This document shows positions 4,750 to 36,408 of a stretch of DNA of 36,408 bases, piece by piece. The position numbers and the translations under genes are program-made. Below the pieces are notes generated by a model. The model was not told the DNA's origin. It worked only from the letters and a program-made list of their open reading frames with translations, and did no database searches. The DNA lies in NCBI GenBank assembly GCA_937958695.1, contig CALGNK010000020.1, positions 1-36,408 of the forward strand. Reading direction: 5' to 3'. This DNA comes from an uncultured bacterium. Its GTDB lineage: Bacteria; DUMJ01. Position 1 is the stretch's first letter, and every line of letters starts with the position of its first letter.

Positions 4750-4864
4750 ATGTTTCTAAAATTTCGAGCTAAAGATTTATAATTCAAACTTAGAGATAAT
4801 TATCAAATATAGTATGCTTTCATTTTTTCTATAGAGGCATATATCTATAAGTCTGAGCAGATTA

Positions 4865-4900
4865 TTGTCATTTGATATTAAGCACTTTATATGCTAAACT
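4865..4900 (+). promoter_or_regulatory. Probable promoter region of the MurNAc salvage operon
   Basis: The 176-bp gap after the tRNA carries overlapping promoter-like boxes: TTGTCA (4865-4870) with TTATAT 16 bp later, and TTGATA (4872-4877) with TAAACT 17 bp later. The exact pair cannot be decided by eye. The SD AAGGAG lies at about 4909-4914, ahead of the ATG at 4926. The rest of the gap (4750-4864) is AT-rich, with nothing recognisable beyond a T-run. Confidence 0.4.
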
Positions 4901-4925
4901 TTTCTAACAAGGAGAGACGTAAGAA

Positions 4926-6149
4926 ATGTTCAGGATGATACTATGCGTCTTACTTATGGTCCTATTGTTTAGTATGGTAATATTAGTAGAAGGCAAGGTA
5001 AGGTTAGGATTAGAGATACTTATAAATGAAAAGATTGACCTTATAAAAGGAAAACGTATAGGGCTTATTACTAACCAGACAGGGGTTGATAGCCAGTTAA
5101 GGAGTAACATAAGTATACTTTCTAAGATTCCTAGAGTTAAATTAGTAGCTTTGTTTGCTCCAGAGCATGGTATAAGAGGGGAAGGGATTGCTGGAGAATA
5201 TGTAAAGAGCTATATAGATGAGGAAACTAATCTACCTGTATATAGTCTCTATGGAGAGACGAGAAAGCCAACAAAAGATATGTTGAAAGATTTAGATGCA
5301 ATTATCTTTGATATACAAGATGTTGGCGTAAGACATTATACTTATATATCTACTATGGCTTTAGCTATGGAATCTGCTAAAGAAAATAGGATAGATTTTA
5401 TAGTCCTTGATAGGCCGAATCCTCTTGGTGGAATTAATGTAGATGGTCCGATATTAGAGCCTGAATTTAGATCTTTTATTGGCTTATATCCTATACCTAA
5501 TATCTATGGGATGACAGTTGGAGAGTTGGCTCTTCTTTTTAACAATGAATTTAGGATATCGGCAAAGCTAACAGTGGTACCTATGGATGGATGGAATAGG
5601 GGTATGAAATTTGATGATACAGGTCTATACTGGGTAATTTCTTCTCCAAATATCCCAGATTTTGAAACTGTACTCCTATATCCTTGTACAGGCCCTATAG
5701 GAGATACCTATCTTTCTGTAGGTATAGGAACGACTAAACCTTTTCATTTTGTTGGAGCTCCGTATATTAATCCTAACAAACTTATAGAGGAGCTTTTAAA
5801 GAGAAGGATTGAAGGAGTAATTTTTAGGTTAGTATATTTTATACCGAAATACTCGAAGTTTCAAAATGAAGTTTGTAAAGGGGTTGAAATTTTTATAACC
5901 GATAGAAATAGATTTAATCCTCTGGAGACTTGTCTAAATATTCTGGATATTGTATACAAACTATATCGTAAAGATTTTAACTGGGGAGATAAGTCTGGTG
6001 GAAGATATCTATTTGACTTGAGTATGGGGACTGACAAGGTTAGAAAATATATAGAAGCTGGAATGAATTCGAAGGAGATTATGAAACTTTGGAAGAAGGA
6101 TCTAGAGAATTTTATGGTAATTAGAAATAAGTATCTAATATATAAATAA
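4926..6149 (+). CDS. namZ: NamZ-like exo-beta-N-acetylmuramidase (DUF1343, GH171)
   Basis: A 407-residue protein starting with a hydrophobic signal or anchor (about residues 1-22), so it is exported. Family motifs are GLITNQTGVD (46-55), LFAPEHGIRGE (76-86), FDIQDVGVRHYTY (128-140) and LDRPNPLGG (161-169). Characterised members release MurNAc from the non-reducing ends of peptidoglycan fragments. The two genes behind it encode a sugar kinase and the MurNAc-6-phosphate etherase MurQ, which strongly supports a MurNAc salvage role. The gene symbol is by homology. SD AAGGAG precedes the ATG. Confidence 0.88.
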   Translation: MFRMILCVLLMVLLFSMVILVEGKVRLGLEILINEKIDLIKGKRIGLITNQTGVDSQLRSNISILSKIPRVKLVALFAPEHGIRGEGIAGEYVKSYIDEETNLPVYSLYGETRKPTKDMLKDLDAIIFDIQDVGVRHYTYISTMALAMESAKENRIDFIVLDRPNPLGGINVDGPILEPEFRSFIGLYPIPNIYGMTVGELALLFNNEFRISAKLTVVPMDGWNRGMKFDDTGLYWVISSPNIPDFETVLLYPCTGPIGDTYLSVGIGTTKPFHFVGAPYINPNKLIEELLKRRIEGVIFRLVYFIPKYSKFQNEVCKGVEIFITDRNRFNPLETCLNILDIVYKLYRKDFNWGDKSGGRYLFDLSMGTDKVRKYIEAGMNSKEIMKLWKKDLENFMVIRNKYLIYK

Positions 6150-24672: not shown

Positions 24673-24708
24673 AGGAGGGCAAAAAGGAATTTTGCCCTCC
24701 TCTTTTCT
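24673..24708. terminator. Bidirectional intrinsic terminator
   Basis: A perfect 12-bp hairpin: AGGAGGGCAAAA (24673-24684), loop AGGAA, TTTTGCCCTCCT (24690-24701). On the plus strand it is followed by CTTTTCTT, ending the gapA-secG transcript. On the minus strand the stem is followed by AAATTATTTTTT, ending the convergent glycoside hydrolase transcript. It sits exactly between the two converging genes. Confidence 0.93.
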
Positions 24709-27700
24709 TATTCAGAAAAGACTTCTAATTTGACCTGATCGAAAAGTCCAAGAGGCATTAGGATATAATCTGTAGTAAATTCTTCGCCCTCTGTTCTGAA
24801 TGACCTAGAATCAGTCCAAGCTCTCTTTCCGCTCTTTTGGTGTAAAGGACCTAACATATTCCTAGGACTACCTACTACTTCTATCTCTATCAAGTTCTTT
24901 CCCCTTACAACAAACGGAGTAATATCTAATCCATCTGCACACTTCCAAGGTATATGCCCTGCCAACTTACCGTTAACCCATATGGCAGTAGTAATAGCTG
25001 AATGATTCCCAAGTCTTAAGAACATCCTTTCATTCTCTTCTAGGTTTATATCTACCTCTTCTATATAGCTTATACTTCCAGCATAGTGTGGATATCCCTG
25101 TAAACACCAATCCCCAAAATGAATTCTTTCTGGCTCTTTTATTATCTCTCTAGTAAGAACGTCTATCCCAAAGTCTCCTATGATATAGCATTCCTCTATT
25201 TCCATCCTATTCTTATAAAGGCAGAATAGTATAAGTTCGTTTTCTCCTATTTTTGGTGTTGGTAATTCTATCCTGTCAAAACTCCTATCTAAATACCATC
25301 CTATAGGTTTGTTAGATATACTCTTTCCATTGAAAAGTATCTCAAAATCCTCTGCATTTTCAACAACTAGACTTATAGGAGTCCTAGGTATATCTTTTAC
25401 TTTGAATGTAAATCTAAACTCTACTGGTGTATCATCATTTGGGTGAGGTTGATATACCCATCTCCACCGCTGTTCTATACCATTTATATGGATATCTCTC
25501 ATTCCTAATCTTCTTCTAACTTCAAGCTGAGCCTTCCATACTGGGAGAACCTCTGACCATTCTTCCCCTTTAAATCTATACTGACAAAAATCTAAAGTAA
25601 GGACATTGGGATCGCTTCTTTTAAATCTAGTAACAGGCCCTATATATTGGCTTCTTTTGTACCTAAGCTCTTTAGGTTTACTTACAGTGGGTTTTGACTT
25701 AGGGTCAATTATATAGAGTTTAGATTCTGCTGGTCCAAAGGTTGTCTTTATTCTAGTTTGATTCTCCTCTTGGATAGCATATATCTCTTCTATCTCTCCT
25801 GTAAGAGGATTCCACTCTTCCACCTTACCATTGTTATGTATAGTGATCTCAACTGTATGGGAGTTATTTCTATCAGTATTTACTATAAAGAACACGTCAC
25901 TCTCATCTATATTCCTCTCCATATATATGAAACAACCAGCTTCTTCCCCTGGTGTTTCTTGTATGCGTATCCTAGGTTGTAAGATTTCATCTAATGCTTT
26001 AGATAACTCTCTTTTGTCACTTATAATAGTCATATTTGAGTGGCTAAAGAGCCAAGAGAGGTCTTCATCTTTGGCTAAGACTTTATCTGGAAGAGGCTTT
26101 ATGGCGATTACTCTTCCACCGCTATCCAAAAATTCCTTAATAAGCTCTACTGTCTTTCTCCTTATTGTCTTCATAGGTGGAAGGATAAGAACCTTATAAT
26201 CAGCCTGGTTTACAATAAATTTCCCATTTACTACCTTGCCATACTCCTCAATAATGGATTCGTCTCCTAAGTCAAAGTCTCTGTGTAGTGCTAGAAGTGT
26301 GTCTAGTATGCTCTGAAATTCTTCACCAATCTTTGAGATTTCCTCAGCATTAATACCATTAAATAGCATCCAAGCGCTTTCTATGGGATGTAGGAGAATG
26401 ATATCTCTAATTACCTTACCTTCTGAGAGTATAAGAGAGAGTCTAGCAAAGTAGTCTTCCACAACTTTATTGTATTTCCACCAGGTAGTATTATAGTTAA
26501 ATGATGGAGGGTAATCTCTCTTCCTACAACCTCTTAGGGTATATAGTGCTAGATGCTGACATCTTAGGTTTACACCTAAAGCGTACTGCCAATCACCAAC
26601 CCATTTTTGCCCTTCAAAAGTAAACTCCCATCCAGTACATCCGTAAAGTTCAGAAAGCACTCTATTTTTACCAAATTGGTTAGCTATACTACTACACTGT
26701 TTTACAGTTAATGTCTCTTTGATAGATTCTGTTAAGATATCTATTCCTGGGATTCCCTGATAAACATAATGGGGCATAATCGCTCCAGATGTAATGATAG
26801 CCCTTGGAAAGTCATTTTCGTAAAGGTAATGACCAGTGAATAGTAAGTTATTCTTTTGGCACCATTCTCCTAACTGTTTTGAATAAGCATTAACGAAGAG
26901 TTCAGTTATAGTTCTCCAGTAATCATATCTTATCTTATAAGATTTTTCTCCATCAAAGAAAAGGTACGGTAAGTTTTCTATGATATCATAGCCTCTTCTT
27001 TCTTTGAAAAATTCAGGGAATATATCGGTCCAAGGCAGACCTCTTTTAGCTACTCTCCAAGCAAATATATTCGGCTCATCTGTAAATATGCCTGGAATAG
27101 TTTTCCCAAATTCTTCTCCTACCTCTTTAAGATAAACTTCATATGTTGTTTCTATAAAAGTCTTTACACTTTTGGGATTTAAATTATCACTGTAGGTATC
27201 TCCGTTGAACCAATCTACTTTTGGACATATCTCTCTTTTAAAGATTAACCCAATCTCACCATCTTCAAGGGTCATCCTTTCTGTTATTTTCTTTAGTTTT
27301 ACTATGGAATTCTTATCTAACGTAGCTATAAAACTGACTACCCCCCCATTAGGGTCTATCTCTTTGTTAGCGACCTCTAAAGTTAAGATCTTTGCTCTAC
27401 CCTCGTCTCCTATCGCCTTAGCCACTAGACCTCCGGCAAAACCAGAAGGCCATCTGTCTTCATCATAAAGCCACGCATTCATTCCTATTTCTTTTGCTGT
27501 TTGGATAGATCTTTTTATGCAATTCATCCACTCTTCACTTAGATAAGGAGTTTCTAAGCCTTCTCTTGAATGCATAAAAAATCCACCCATCCCAGAGTAC
27601 TTCATATCCCTTATCTGCCTATCCAGCTCTTCTGGGTCTAACCTATCATTCCAAGACCAAAAAGGGGCCCCTCGATAATCTTTATCTGGATTAAAAAACT

Positions 27701-27719
27701 TTCTTCTTAACTCTTCCAT
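24708..27719 (-). CDS. GH106-like glycoside hydrolase (alpha-L-rhamnosidase-type)
   Basis: A 1003-residue protein. The N-terminal barrel starts with APFWSWNDRLDPEEL (18-32), FFMHSREGL (47-55) and WLYDEDRWPSG (83-93), typical of the GH106 family and relatives. Candidate acidic catalytic residues are E215 in FTDEPN and E357 in LSELYG. A long beta-rich C-terminal part (about 640-1003) contains segments like jelly-roll carbohydrate-binding domains. No signal peptide is present, so it would act on imported oligosaccharides or glycosides in the cytoplasm. The rhamnose substrate is inferred from the family only. SD AGGAGG lies 8 nt before the ATG. It is 26 bp behind the ferritin-like gene and probably co-transcribed with it. 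Confidence 0.83.
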   Translation of the reverse strand: MEELRRKFFNPDKDYRGAPFWSWNDRLDPEELDRQIRDMKYSGMGGFFMHSREGLETPYLSEEWMNCIKRSIQTAKEIGMNAWLYDEDRWPSGFAGGLVAKAIGDEGRAKILTLEVANKEIDPNGGVVSFIATLDKNSIVKLKKITERMTLEDGEIGLIFKREICPKVDWFNGDTYSDNLNPKSVKTFIETTYEVYLKEVGEEFGKTIPGIFTDEPNIFAWRVAKRGLPWTDIFPEFFKERRGYDIIENLPYLFFDGEKSYKIRYDYWRTITELFVNAYSKQLGEWCQKNNLLFTGHYLYENDFPRAIITSGAIMPHYVYQGIPGIDILTESIKETLTVKQCSSIANQFGKNRVLSELYGCTGWEFTFEGQKWVGDWQYALGVNLRCQHLALYTLRGCRKRDYPPSFNYNTTWWKYNKVVEDYFARLSLILSEGKVIRDIILLHPIESAWMLFNGINAEEISKIGEEFQSILDTLLALHRDFDLGDESIIEEYGKVVNGKFIVNQADYKVLILPPMKTIRRKTVELIKEFLDSGGRVIAIKPLPDKVLAKDEDLSWLFSHSNMTIISDKRELSKALDEILQPRIRIQETPGEEAGCFIYMERNIDESDVFFIVNTDRNNSHTVEITIHNNGKVEEWNPLTGEIEEIYAIQEENQTRIKTTFGPAESKLYIIDPKSKPTVSKPKELRYKRSQYIGPVTRFKRSDPNVLTLDFCQYRFKGEEWSEVLPVWKAQLEVRRRLGMRDIHINGIEQRWRWVYQPHPNDDTPVEFRFTFKVKDIPRTPISLVVENAEDFEILFNGKSISNKPIGWYLDRSFDRIELPTPKIGENELILFCLYKNRMEIEECYIIGDFGIDVLTREIIKEPERIHFGDWCLQGYPHYAGSISYIEEVDINLEENERMFLRLGNHSAITTAIWVNGKLAGHIPWKCADGLDITPFVVRGKNLIEIEVVGSPRNMLGPLHQKSGKRAWTDSRSFRTEGEEFTTDYILMPLGLFDQVKLEVFSE

Positions 27720-27745
27720 ATGAGAAACCTCCTCAAAAGAAGATT

Positions 27746-28054
27746 TTATTTACTTATTAATCTCCTAATTATCTCTTCTACCTCTTTTTCTCCCTCTTTA
27801 TAAAAGTTTTCCTCTTCTTTATCTAACTCTTTAAGGAGTCTTAGAAATTCTCCTACATGGACCTTTTCTTCATTTGCTATATCATATAAGACCTCTTTGG
27901 CTAAATCTTCATCAATTGATTCTGCTATCTCTTCGTAGATTTGGATAGCTTCGTACTCAGCAGCAATAAAGAATCTAATAGCTCTTATAAGCTCCTCTTT
28001 AGAGATCTTCTTGTTACTAGAAAGCGTTGAGTAAGGAGTTCCAAACTCAGGCAT
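27746..28054 (-). CDS. Encapsulin-type ferritin-like protein (EncFtn/FLP family)
   Basis: A 102-residue two-helix ferritin-like protein. Iron-site residues of encapsulated ferritins can be placed: E33 in AAEYEA, E63 and H66 in EEKVH, with Y40 near the site. The N-terminus MPEFGTP and KEELIRAIR resemble the domain fused to or encoded beside encapsulin shells in Pyrococcus and Thermotoga. Such proteins assemble into rings that oxidise Fe(II) and normally store iron inside the shell. No encapsulin gene is next to it here. SD AGGAGGA precedes the ATG, and it is divergent from an Rrf2 regulator that may control it. Confidence 0.85.
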   Translation of the reverse strand: MPEFGTPYSTLSSNKKISKEELIRAIRFFIAAEYEAIQIYEEIAESIDEDLAKEVLYDIANEEKVHVGEFLRLLKELDKEEENFYKEGEKEVEEIIRRLISK

Positions 28055-28177: not shown

Positions 28178-28585
28178 GTGGCTTTAAGATTGTCGACTAA
28201 AGCTAGATATGGTTTAAGGGCATTAATATCATTAGCAAGACATTACGGAGAAGGTCCTATAATGGCGAAGATTATAGCTAAAGAAGAAGAGATATCAGAA
28301 AATTATCTAGAACAGATACTGGAACTTCTTAGAAGAAGTGGTATAGTAAGAAGTATAAGAGGAGCCCAAGGTGGTTTTGTACTTGTTAAATCACCACAAG
28401 AGATCAGAGTGAAAGAAATAATTGATATCTTAGAAGGACCAATAGTTCTTGTAGATTGTCTTTCTTCTCCTGAAGTTTGTAAAAGGAGTAAAGATTGTAC
28501 TGCACGTACTCTTTGGGGAGAATTAAAAGGGAATATCATAAGATTTTTAGAGTCAAAGACGTTAGCTGATTTTATAAGCCAATAA
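28178..28585 (+). CDS. Rrf2-family transcriptional regulator (IscR-like)
   Basis: A 135-residue winged-helix regulator. The family N-terminus LSTKARYGLRAL is followed by the helix-turn-helix, SENYLEQIL, and the wing SIRGAQGGF. Three cysteines, C94, C101 and C107 (C-x6-C-x5-C), match the [2Fe-2S] ligand pattern of IscR-like members, suggesting it senses Fe-S status, iron or redox state. The start is GTG with SD GAGGTGAT. Its divergent position suggests that it controls the ferritin-like operon and itself. IscS/IscU partners are not in the window, so iscR is not assigned. Confidence 0.9.
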   Translation: MALRLSTKARYGLRALISLARHYGEGPIMAKIIAKEEEISENYLEQILELLRRSGIVRSIRGAQGGFVLVKSPQEIRVKEIIDILEGPIVLVDCLSSPEVCKRSKDCTARTLWGELKGNIIRFLESKTLADFISQ

Positions 28586-32359: not shown

Positions 32360-33029
32360 AGAAGATTTTATAAAGATTGCCTTTGAGATGGAGGATAATC
32401 GTATAGATGATTCTTTTTCATTAGAAATACAGGAATTAGTGTTAGGTATACTTGAAAGGGCTAAGAGAAACGCTGATCTTTTGAAAGAGAAGGCTAAAGC
32501 AGAAGGATATCAAAAAGGTTTAGAAGAGGGCAGAGAAGATGGATATAGAGAAGGTTATGAGAATGGATATAGAAAAGGATACGAGGAAGGTTTAAACTTT
32601 TTTAAAGATAAGATGGAATATCTGGAAAAACTAGGAGAGGGTATTTTATTAGAGAGACATAGATTGTTTGAGGAATATAAGTATGAAATAGCACAAATGG
32701 CTTTGGAGATCGCTAAAAAATTAGTCTTTACAGAAATTTTGACTAATCCAGATATCATCTATAATATAATATCTAAAGCTATATCTTTGATGAAGGAAAA
32801 AGAGTCAATAAAGATAGTAGTAAATCCTGTGATATTTGGTTTAATAAATGGTAATAATATATTAACTATAGGTGGAGATAAGGTGGAAATAGTAAGTGAT
32901 CAGAGATTAGACGAAGGAGATATAATAATCATAACTCCTGGAGAAAAGGTGGAATTTAGACTAAAAGAAAGGTTAAAGGAGCTAGAGGAGAGTTTTAGAG
33001 ATGTCTTTGCCAATTTATCTAGACCTTAG
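32352..33029 (+). CDS. fliH: Flagellar assembly protein FliH
   Basis: A 225-residue regulator of the export ATPase FliI. Residues 52-80 contain an uninterrupted glycine every fourth residue (G52, 56, 60, 64, 68, 72, 76, 80), the GxxxG helix typical of FliH. The C-terminal domain (about 90-225) resembles the FliH/V-ATPase E-subunit fold. The start is TTG at 32352, just after a strong SD-like GGAGAGGAGG, inside the end of fliG. It overlaps fliI by 29 nt. Confidence 0.9.
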   Translation: MSREDFIKIAFEMEDNRIDDSFSLEIQELVLGILERAKRNADLLKEKAKAEGYQKGLEEGREDGYREGYENGYRKGYEEGLNFFKDKMEYLEKLGEGILLERHRLFEEYKYEIAQMALEIAKKLVFTEILTNPDIIYNIISKAISLMKEKESIKIVVNPVIFGLINGNNILTIGGDKVEIVSDQRLDEGDIIIITPGEKVEFRLKERLKELEESFRDVFANLSRP

Positions 33030-34335
33030 TAGTTATAAAGAAAGAATCAACAGTATAAGACTTTTTAAGCAGATAGGTTATATAGATACAGTAACAGGAT
33101 TAACTGTAGAGTCAATCGGACCTACGGCCTCTGTTGGAGAGGTATGTAGAGTATATTCTAAAAACGATGAAGGAGAATTTTTAGCTGAGGTCGTAGGCTT
33201 TAAACAGAACAAACTTATACTAATGCCGATAGGAAAGATAAATGGTATAAAACCAGGAATGGAAGTGACACCTCTAGGAAAGCCACTATCAGTTAAGGTA
33301 AATACCAATATACTAGGGAGGATCTTAGATGCCCTTGGAAACCCTATAGATGATTTGGGATCTATAATAGAAGGGATAGAGTATCCTTTAGATAATATAC
33401 CGCCTAATCCTCTTAAGAGAACTAGGATAAAAGAAATTATCTCTGTTGGAGTTAAAGCTATAGATGGATTATTAACTTGTGGGAAGGGACAACGTATAGG
33501 AATTTTCGCTGGAAGCGGTGTTGGCAAGAGTACACTTCTAGGAATGATAGCAAGACATAGTAAGGCGGATGTAAATGTTATAGCTCTTATTGGAGAAAGA
33601 GGAAGAGAAGTAAGAGACTTTATAGAAAAATCCTTAGGAGAAGAAGGCTTGAAAAGGTCAGTAGTAGTTGTTGCTACTTCTGATCAGCCTCCTTTATTGA
33701 GGCTTAAGGCTGCATTTACCGCTACTGCTATAGCGGAATATTTTAGAGATTTGGGAAGAGATGTTATTCTTCTAATGGATTCTGTAACTAGATTTGCTAT
33801 GGCGCAGAGAGAGATTGGATTAGCTAGTGGGGAGCCTCCTACAACGAAAGGATACACTCCTAGTGTATTTGCTCTCCTTCCTACCTTGTTGGAAAGAGCA
33901 GGTAATAGTGATAGAGGTAGTATAACTGGTTTTTATACAGTTCTTGTAGAGGCAGATGATATGAATGAACCAATAGCAGATGCAGTAAGGGCTATCCTTG
34001 ATGGACATATAGTGCTATCAAGGAATATAGCTATGGAGAATAGATATCCACCTATAGATGTCCTTGCTAGTGTAAGTAGAGTGATGCCAGATATAGTCTC
34101 TATAGAACATATAAAATTAGCCAATAAGGTAAAAGAGATAATGAATGTTTATATACAGGCAAAAGACTTGATTCAAATTGGAGCATATGTAGATGGAACG
34201 GATCCTAGAGTAGACTCTGCTAAGAATCTAATAGAAGAGATTTATTCTTTTCTGTCTCAAAATATAGAAGAAAAGTTTACTTTAGAAGATGTTTTAGAAA
34301 AGATGAAAGAGATTGTTAGAAGATATGGCTACTAA
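33001..34335 (+). CDS. fliI: Flagellum-specific export ATPase FliI
   Basis: A 444-residue F1-beta-like ATPase that energises flagellar protein export. Walker A is AGSGVGKST (170-178), Walker B is VILLMDSVTRFAMAQRE, and the export-ATPase motif EPPTTKGYTPSVFALLP is present. The start at 33001 gives an N-terminus (YLDLSSYKERI) in line with relatives, and it overlaps fliH by 29 nt. The length is standard. It overlaps fliJ by 11 nt. Confidence 0.97.
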   Translation: MSLPIYLDLSSYKERINSIRLFKQIGYIDTVTGLTVESIGPTASVGEVCRVYSKNDEGEFLAEVVGFKQNKLILMPIGKINGIKPGMEVTPLGKPLSVKVNTNILGRILDALGNPIDDLGSIIEGIEYPLDNIPPNPLKRTRIKEIISVGVKAIDGLLTCGKGQRIGIFAGSGVGKSTLLGMIARHSKADVNVIALIGERGREVRDFIEKSLGEEGLKRSVVVVATSDQPPLLRLKAAFTATAIAEYFRDLGRDVILLMDSVTRFAMAQREIGLASGEPPTTKGYTPSVFALLPTLLERAGNSDRGSITGFYTVLVEADDMNEPIADAVRAILDGHIVLSRNIAMENRYPPIDVLASVSRVMPDIVSIEHIKLANKVKEIMNVYIQAKDLIQIGAYVDGTDPRVDSAKNLIEEIYSFLSQNIEEKFTLEDVLEKMKEIVRRYGY

Positions 34336-34762
34336 TTTTAGGTTTAGATTTGAGAAAATATTGGATTGGTATGCAAAGAAAAAGGATGAAGCCAAGAAGA
34401 GATTAGCAGAGCTTAAGGCAGAGTACCTAAGAGAAGAGAGTATATTAAGGGAAATGGAGGAAGAAAAGGAGTTTGGAGAAAGAGCCTTTCTAGAAAATAT
34501 CAGTAATATAAGATATAGCTTAGTTATAAGGGATTACATAGATAAGAAGAAAGAAGAGATTAGTATCCAGAAAAATAAGTTAAATTTACTTGATAAGAAA
34601 ATATTGGAGCAGAGAAGTGTATTGTTATACTGGGAAATGAAAGAAAGATCAATGGAGAAGCTAAGAGAAAGAGATCTCTTTACATATCAGTTGAAACTAA
34701 AGAGATTGGAAAATATAATATTAGACGAAAATGGAATTGTTAGATACCTTAGAAAGATATGA
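34325..34762 (+). CDS. fliJ: Flagellar export chaperone FliJ
   Basis: A 145-residue, highly charged, almost wholly alpha-helical coiled-coil protein. The start NFRFRFEKILDWYAKKKDEA fits the FliJ N-terminal pattern. ATG 34325 is chosen over an in-frame TTG at 34313 because it gives that N-terminus and places AGAAG just upstream. FliJ escorts chaperones and couples FliI to FlhA. Sequence conservation in the family is low, so position between fliI and the MotE-like gene is important support. Confidence 0.85.
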   Translation: MATNFRFRFEKILDWYAKKKDEAKKRLAELKAEYLREESILREMEEEKEFGERAFLENISNIRYSLVIRDYIDKKKEEISIQKNKLNLLDKKILEQRSVLLYWEMKERSMEKLRERDLFTYQLKLKRLENIILDENGIVRYLRKI

Positions 34763-35298
34763 AAATACTTAGTTGGATTATAATATTGCTTTTTTGTATA
34801 GTATGTATAGGTGGTTTGTTATATTTTTTACCGATAACTAGGGATTTAGTAATTGGGGTATTAGATGATTTACCTATAATATCAAATTATATAAAGACGG
34901 AAAAGTCAAAGAGTCAGGTAGAGTTACTTAAGGAGAATATAGAAGGATTACAAAAACAGATAAAGACTTTAACAACTAAGATTAAAGAAGTTAATAGTGA
35001 GTTAGAATTGGCGAGGTCTCAGTTAGAAGAGAAGGATAAATTGATATCTGGTTTAAAGTCAGAACTGAGATCTCTGAAAAGTGAAACTGAGAAAAGAATT
35101 CAGAATACTAAAAAGTTGGCTAGTGTCATAGAGAGTATGGATGTTAAATCTGCTGCTAGGATTATAGAAGAGATGGATGAAGAAAGAGCAGTAGAGATAT
35201 TAATTCTTATTAACAAAGAACGAGTGGGTGAGATATTTAAATATCTTACTCCTAGTAAGGCTGTAAGCTTGTTGGATAAACTTGGATGGGGAGGATAA
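34759..35298 (+). CDS. MotE/YlxF-like MgtE-N-domain protein
   Basis: A 179-residue protein. It has an N-terminal transmembrane helix (about 5-24), a periplasmic-type coiled coil (about 48-120) and a C-terminal MgtE-N-like helical domain (about 120-176) with MDVKSAARIIEEMDEERAVEIL and LTPSKAVSLLDKLG. This layout matches MotE/YlxF proteins encoded between fliJ and fliK in many bacteria. MotE is a chaperone for the stator protein MotC in Rhizobium. The stop of fliJ overlaps its ATG by 4 nt. Confidence 0.82.
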   Translation: MKILSWIIILLFCIVCIGGLLYFLPITRDLVIGVLDDLPIISNYIKTEKSKSQVELLKENIEGLQKQIKTLTTKIKEVNSELELARSQLEEKDKLISGLKSELRSLKSETEKRIQNTKKLASVIESMDVKSAARIIEEMDEERAVEILILINKERVGEIFKYLTPSKAVSLLDKLGWGG

Positions 35299-35302
35299 AT
35301 TT

Positions 35303-36408
35303 TTGTATATAACTATTCCTAATACGGGGGAATTAGTAACTGAGCTAAATATAGACACAGATATACAAAGTAACAAAGATATTGAGGGGTTAAATTTCTT
35401 GGAATTACTTTCTGCTGTATTAGATAGGGAGAATAAAGAATTAGATTTTTCACCACAGAAGATAGAGAAGGATTATAAAAGAGGGGTAGAGATAAGTAAT
35501 ATCTTTCTCTTTAATTATATTTATAGTAATCCTATATTTCTTCCTCAGACCTTATTCCTCTTGGATAAAGAAAAGGCCGATATATTATCAGAAAATCAAA
35601 AAATAACTGAACAGATAGTTAATATAGTATCCTTAATGAAACCTGGAGACGAGATAGTTTTTAATATTGACGATAAGGAGATATTAATAAGGAAAGATCT
35701 ACAATCGCAAGTTTCTGTTTTGGTCGATTATAAAGACGTCGAGAATAAAATAAAAACTACTAGAGTACTTCAACCTATAAGAAAGGATTCCGATAAGATT
35801 CAAGAAGAGGAGAAAAGCTCTAAGATAATTCAAGACATCCAAATTAGAGAAGATACACAAAAGACTAGGTTCAGTGCAAAAATAGAGGAGATATCTGAAA
35901 AGTTTCAAATTAAAGACAAGAGAGATGAAATTCTAGAAGGAATCACCGGAGATAAAGTATTTAAGGATATTGCAAACGAAAAGATCTTGAAAGATAGCGA
36001 TAATGATAAAAAATCAATCGAGCAAGTAAAGACTATTAATAGAGAGGAGATAGTTCAAGAGATAGTTAATGAGCCTAAGGTTACCCAGAAGGGGATAGAG
36101 GTTACTAAGGTATTAAGAGATAGAGAACCAGTTGAGCAAGTAAAGACTATTAATAGAGAAGAGATAGTTAATGAACCTAAGGTTACTCAAAAGGGGATAG
36201 AGGTTACTAAGGTATTAAGAGATAGAGAACCAGCTGAGCAAGTAAAGACTATTAATAGAGAAGAGATAGTTCAAGAGATAGTTAATGAGCCTAAGGTTAC
36301 CCAAAAGGGGATAGAAGTTACTAAGGTATTAAGAGATAGAGAACCAGTTGAGCAAGTAAAGACTATTAATAGAGAAGAGATAGTTCAAGAGATAGTTAAT
36401 GAACCTAA
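35303..36408 (+). CDS. fliK: FliK-position protein with tandem repeats, partial at window edge
   Basis: An open frame from TTG 35303 to the window end (at least 368 codons, no stop). The SD GGGGAGGA at 35288-35295 has 7-nt spacing. There is no ATG start, so simple ORF searches can miss it. The first about 130 residues include a moderately hydrophobic stretch (NIFLFNYIYSNPIFLP). After that the protein is hydrophilic and rich in Lys, Glu, Asp and Ile, and from about residue 240 it consists of tandem 38/34-residue repeats. Position after fliJ and the MotE-like gene is that of fliK, the hook-length ruler. The conserved FliK C-terminal domain would lie beyond the window, so the symbol is positional. 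Confidence 0.72.
   Translation, partial: MYITIPNTGELVTELNIDTDIQSNKDIEGLNFLELLSAVLDRENKELDFSPQKIEKDYKRGVEISNIFLFNYIYSNPIFLPQTLFLLDKEKADILSENQKITEQIVNIVSLMKPGDEIVFNIDDKEILIRKDLQSQVSVLVDYKDVENKIKTTRVLQPIRKDSDKIQEEEKSSKIIQDIQIREDTQKTRFSAKIEEISEKFQIKDKRDEILEGITGDKVFKDIANEKILKDSDNDKKSIEQVKTINREEIVQEIVNEPKVTQKGIEVTKVLRDREPVEQVKTINREEIVNEPKVTQKGIEVTKVLRDREPAEQVKTINREEIVQEIVNEPKVTQKGIEVTKVLRDREPVEQVKTINREEIVQEIVNEP
36020..36408 (+). repeat. In-frame tandem repeat, 114/102-bp units, continuing past the window
   Basis: Unit 1 is 36020-36133 (114 bp), unit 2 is 36134-36235 (102 bp), unit 3 is 36236-36349 (114 bp), and unit 4 starts at 36350 and is cut by the edge. Each unit encodes EQVKTINREEIV... ending in KVLRDREP. 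Units 1 and 3 differ at only three bases, all synonymous G/A third positions. Unit 2 lacks 12 bp because one copy of an internal GAGATAGTTCAA sub-repeat is missing. Confidence 0.95.

Follow-up and report, generated by a model that had tools for sequence, protein, structure and literature searches.

The window analysed here, that is, the entire contig C20 of 36,408 bp from a genome of 57 contigs (2.09 Mb), ends within a gene that is a real FliK ruler with a rapidly renewed array of tandem repeats, a variant with a clear precedent in YscP. Our main reading, to which we assign a probability of about 75%, is that the array sets the length in a genuine FliK hook-length ruler and is renewed by turnover of its units.

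The gene order in this genome runs from flgB/flgC-like rod genes through fliF and fliG-fliH-fliI-fliJ-ylxF-like-fliK in the window to flgD on contig C49 (Table 1), and, judging by this arrangement, the gene occupies the usual place of fliK in the operon. A search of the genome with the gene showed that C20 ends inside the array and that C49 begins inside the same array. The Flg_hook domain (PF02120) is located on C49 at residues 190–265 of 314, with an E value of 5e-11 and 42.7 bits against a cut-off of 29.8. The stop codon is followed by a gene with a FlgD domain (E = 1.5e-16), a hook-type flagellar gene, and others. Domain, stop codon and flgD together identify the gene as fliK. The earlier note had proposed a FliK-type hook-length ruler gene carrying the repeats in its ruler part, an identification that hinged on a stop codon and a FliK C-terminal domain downstream; both turned out to be present on C49, along with three further units, and the array does sit in the ruler part. 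One Flg_hook match per genome was found in the window's genome and in both congeners (G001 and G002). The nearest solved structure by profile is the C-terminal domain of Salmonella FliK (2rrl), although this match is weak (E = 0.042).

Translation of fliK probably starts at the TTG at 35303, which follows a GGAGG at 35290–35294. The mechanical ORF call puts the start at 35282; the TTG was chosen on account of the GGAGG, which resembles a Shine-Dalgarno sequence, and of the overlap with the gene upstream. The product of that upstream gene, a small membrane/coiled-coil protein, reveals a weak similarity to FlbB, a spirochaete collar protein, with an E value of 2.7e-4 that is far below the cut-off. 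Elsewhere in the window, the region 24708–28054 on the minus strand encodes a 1003-residue glycoside hydrolase family 106-like protein (alpha-L-rhamnosidase, E = 7.5e-33) and carries a rubrerythrin-like gene, and an Rrf2-type regulator (28178–28585, plus strand) lies immediately upstream of the flagellar operon.

Table 1. Coordinates of the flagellar genes, the fliK repeat units and the other tandem arrays discussed in the text
Feature	Sequence	Position	Strand	Remarks
fliI, export ATPase	C20 (window)	33001..34335	+	TIGR03497 E=5.9e-198, over cut-off
fliJ	C20 (window)	34313..34762	+	Pfam FliJ E=6.3e-7; TIGR02473 E=5.2e-13
MgtE_N/YlxF-like coiled-coil protein gene	C20 (window)	34759..35298	+	between fliJ and fliK; Pfam MgtE_N E=3.3e-7
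fliK, 5' part	C20 (window)	35303..36408	+	ORF and translation; open at contig end, continues on C49
Repeat unit U1	C20 (window)	36020..36133	+	114 bp, 38 residues, EQVKTINREEIVQEIVNEPKVTQKGIEVTKVLRDREPV
Repeat unit U2	C20 (window)	36134..36235	+	102 bp, 34 residues, minus one 12-bp sub-repeat
Repeat unit U3	C20 (window)	36236..36349	+	114 bp, 38 residues, protein identical to U1
Repeat unit U4	C20 (window)	36350..36408	+	partial, 59 bp, cut by end of C20
Repeat unit Va	C49	1-96		12-bp-short type
Repeat unit Vb	C49	97-210		full unit
Repeat unit Vc	C49	211-324		3' half degenerate
fliK stop codon	C49	943-945		3' of Flg_hook domain
Desulfoscipio MAG FliK	L047			414 bp x 2.2
Deltaproteobacteria MAG FliK	L040			291 bp x 2.0
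G049 FliK	L140			291 bp x 1.8
Other strong array, same genome	L161 (G000:C5)	87-413
Other strong array, same genome	L168 (G000:C12)	4835-4993
Other strong array, same genome	L173 (G000:C17)	167-312

When TRF was applied to the whole window, the region 36020–36408 was recovered as a single tandem array with a period of 114, 3.5 copies and a score of 652; the only other arrays are two short ones with scores of 59 and 73. The array takes up the last 389 bases of the contig, in the frame of the ORF that is open at the contig end. The details reported in the earlier note hold: the in-frame repeats of 114, 102 and 114 bp run on to the edge, where the last unit breaks off, U1 and U3 differ at three bases, all synonymous, and U2 is shorter by exactly one 12-bp sub-repeat with the frame kept. 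Adjacent copies have up to 92 exact bases in common, and the non-terminal units of this species differ by 0–8 nt per 96–114 nt. A match of the repeat region to DUF7234 (24.8 bits) was rejected as a repeat artefact, since no single stretch passes alone. Structure prediction of the N-terminal part, performed on the window portion alone, gave a mean pLDDT of 33 and was discarded as uninformative.

On C49, Va differs from U2 by three bases. U4 and Vb are distinct copies, since U3 has the 12-bp sub-repeat and Va, which precedes Vb, is without it. Therefore, the array would comprise at least seven units (U1–U4, Va, Vb, and Vc) and the protein about 703 residues or more, assuming that both contigs represent one strain; the unit count is a lower bound because the assembly broke in the array. 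C20 and C49 both terminate in this array and are correctly oriented for a join, and no exact suffix-prefix overlap between them was found. We infer the junction from gene content and synteny, and the parts on either side of it could derive from different strains if the genome is metagenome-derived.

In a collection of 97,973 species, the window's phylum has only three genomes, all from a single genus, and its FliI has at most 64% identity to anything found in named genomes. All three genomes, one per species, were compared; the assemblies of the two congeners are also multi-contig (~170 and ~430 contigs). In G001 and G002, too, fliK is in two pieces, one at the end of a contig and one at the start of another, with the split inside a tandem array, and the Flg_hook domain is found in both proteins (E = 4.1e-12 and 3.9e-13). 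The G001 array is built of a 105-bp unit (VIRREPKIDNQVRIDTDSIRDRVIEATDGKLEVTS) whose copies differ at 2 of 73 nt, and the G002 array of a 120-bp unit (RIVQDIGRDLVETPKDRVATEITQGIDRGIQDSKGRIDAT) whose copies differ at 3–12 of 120 nt. Between species, the units are barely alike: alignments against shuffles gave P = 0.02, 0.04 and 0.23 for protein and P = 0.01, 0.002 and 0.002 for DNA. The rest of the protein is conserved better. Its C-terminal part shows 75% and 59% identity across species (FliI, 91% across the congeneric species), the N-terminal flank is alignable with both congeners over most of its length, and the arrays of the three species terminate in similar flanks (TKVIQDRLDILDIS, TSVIRKDEKLEAN, and NLAQDRLNALDIS). 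In composition, the units of all three species resemble each other, having 35–40 residues, 38–43% D, E, K and R with a net charge near neutral, and no aromatic residues, His, or Cys.

Units of one species are near-identical and those of different species show little resemblance, yet the flanking domains are alignable; turnover of the array thus seems to be rapid and to proceed species by species. This agrees with the recent expansion or homogenisation suggested in the earlier note. Such a pattern would be expected from concerted evolution, or from an array that repeatedly collapses and expands again at one site. That each of the three species invented unrelated repeats independently is made less likely by the common site, the similar flanks, and the fact that the units align slightly above shuffled sequences. 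Weak homology of the arrays combined with concerted evolution is thus preferred, though not proven.

To see how common such arrays are, we looked for arrays of at least 150 bp in 85 FliK reading frames, some of them truncated, that belong to organisms outside the genus. Tandem arrays are present in three of them, each with about two copies of a 291–414-bp unit; FliK proteins with arrays thus recur, although as a minority. These three are also Flg_hook proteins in which near-identical tandem repeats, again in frame, precede the C-terminal domain; however, their units are of ~97–138 residues in about two copies, compared with 34–38 residues and at least seven copies in the window's FliK, and the sequences are unrelated. 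None of the 85 frames has as many short units. In the literature covered, which leaves most subscription journals outside, no direct report of natural tandem repeats in FliK was found. The background of the genome itself was estimated from 417 kb, in which three other contigs carry strong arrays with periods of 21–63 bp; thus, tandem arrays are not confined to fliK. The units of these arrays are of a 7- or 14-residue type, coiled-coil-like where read by eye, and each array is near a contig end.

In FliK, a ruler domain at the N-terminus is joined by a linker to a C-terminal switch domain, which binds FlhB (PMC6972891). In Salmonella, FliK proteins of 363–785 residues give hooks of 42–135 nm, a linear dependence with 0.2 nm per residue, and motility peaks at the wild-type hook length (PMC6126814). 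The window's FliK resembles the FliK of Salmonella and Bacillus (PF02120) in operon position, the C-terminal Flg_hook switch domain, and a long variable N-terminal/central ruler part. It differs in that the ruler is made up of tandem units, most of them near-identical, and in its length (at least about 703 residues vs. 405 in Salmonella). Internal repeats in the ruler are a feature it has in common with YscP/SctP, the homologous needle-length ruler of Yersinia, which, however, serves the injectisome rather than the flagellum and has different units. In YscP, the repeats are of 14, 25 and 46 residues, their number varies naturally among Yersinia strains (452 vs. 538 aa between strains), and protein size tracks needle length (PMC3469391); strain variation is thus documented for YscP.

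FliK would be exported through the growing hook, and the span from its N-terminal signal to the C-terminal switch domain would time the export change from hook to filament protein. Here, this span would be built of tandem 34–38-residue units. Copies are probably added, removed and homogenised in frame by unequal exchange between the long identical units or by slippage during replication, which would account for near-identity within species and divergence between species at the same site of the gene. Given the ~0.2 nm per FliK residue and the natural repeat variation in YscP, a ruler role with ~7–8 nm of hook per unit is likely; if the Salmonella scaling holds, a protein of at least 703 residues would correspond to a hook of ~115 nm or more. 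The change in hook length on unit gain or loss that the earlier note predicted is thus in line with what has been published on FliK and YscP. We infer both exchange or slippage as the cause of turnover and its effect on hook length. A bolder extension, which we consider improbable, is that this small phylum-level lineage keeps its FliK ruler as a fast self-homogenising array, so that hook length evolves in quantised steps of ~7–8 nm by unit gain or loss, with length polymorphism at the population level.

The strongest competitor of a length-setting array is that the repeats are neutral filler: the ruler part tolerates almost any sequence, the array is duplication noise, and hook length is not tuned, with compensation elsewhere in the protein being possible. 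The ruler part is indeed the fast-evolving part of FliK, three distant FliK proteins have repeat units unrelated in sequence, and other genes of the same genome also carry tandem arrays. On the other hand, the Salmonella hook grows linearly with added residues and motility peaks at its wild-type length (PMC6126814), so a neutral hook length is improbable for peritrichous swimmers. We regard neutral filler as possible but on the unlikely side.

A contingency-like switch, an idea raised in the earlier note, appears very improbable. In this reading, the number of units would change frequently in one clone, and the population would vary its hook length on purpose. The exact bases common to adjacent copies are long enough for recombination, and in each of the three species the assembly is interrupted within the array, as would also happen with mixed counts in a population. 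However, exact repeats alone, with short reads, already predict such a break, and we know of no benefit of hook-length switching. It is harder still to explain the repeats as a product of misassembly. The array does lie at a contig end in a fragmented assembly, but the units bear distinct variants and keep the frame, each of the two independent congeneric genomes possesses an array of its own at this site, and C49 shows the same units a second time, independently, so that this explanation is largely refuted.

Molecular rulers must change length in nature, and the evidence for this comes mostly from engineered insertions. A FliK ruler composed of units that can replace one another, present in different states in three sister species, offers a natural test of how ruler and hook length evolve. 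The repeat array also explains why short-read assemblies repeatedly break in fliK and why the gene will be annotated wrongly as two fragments.
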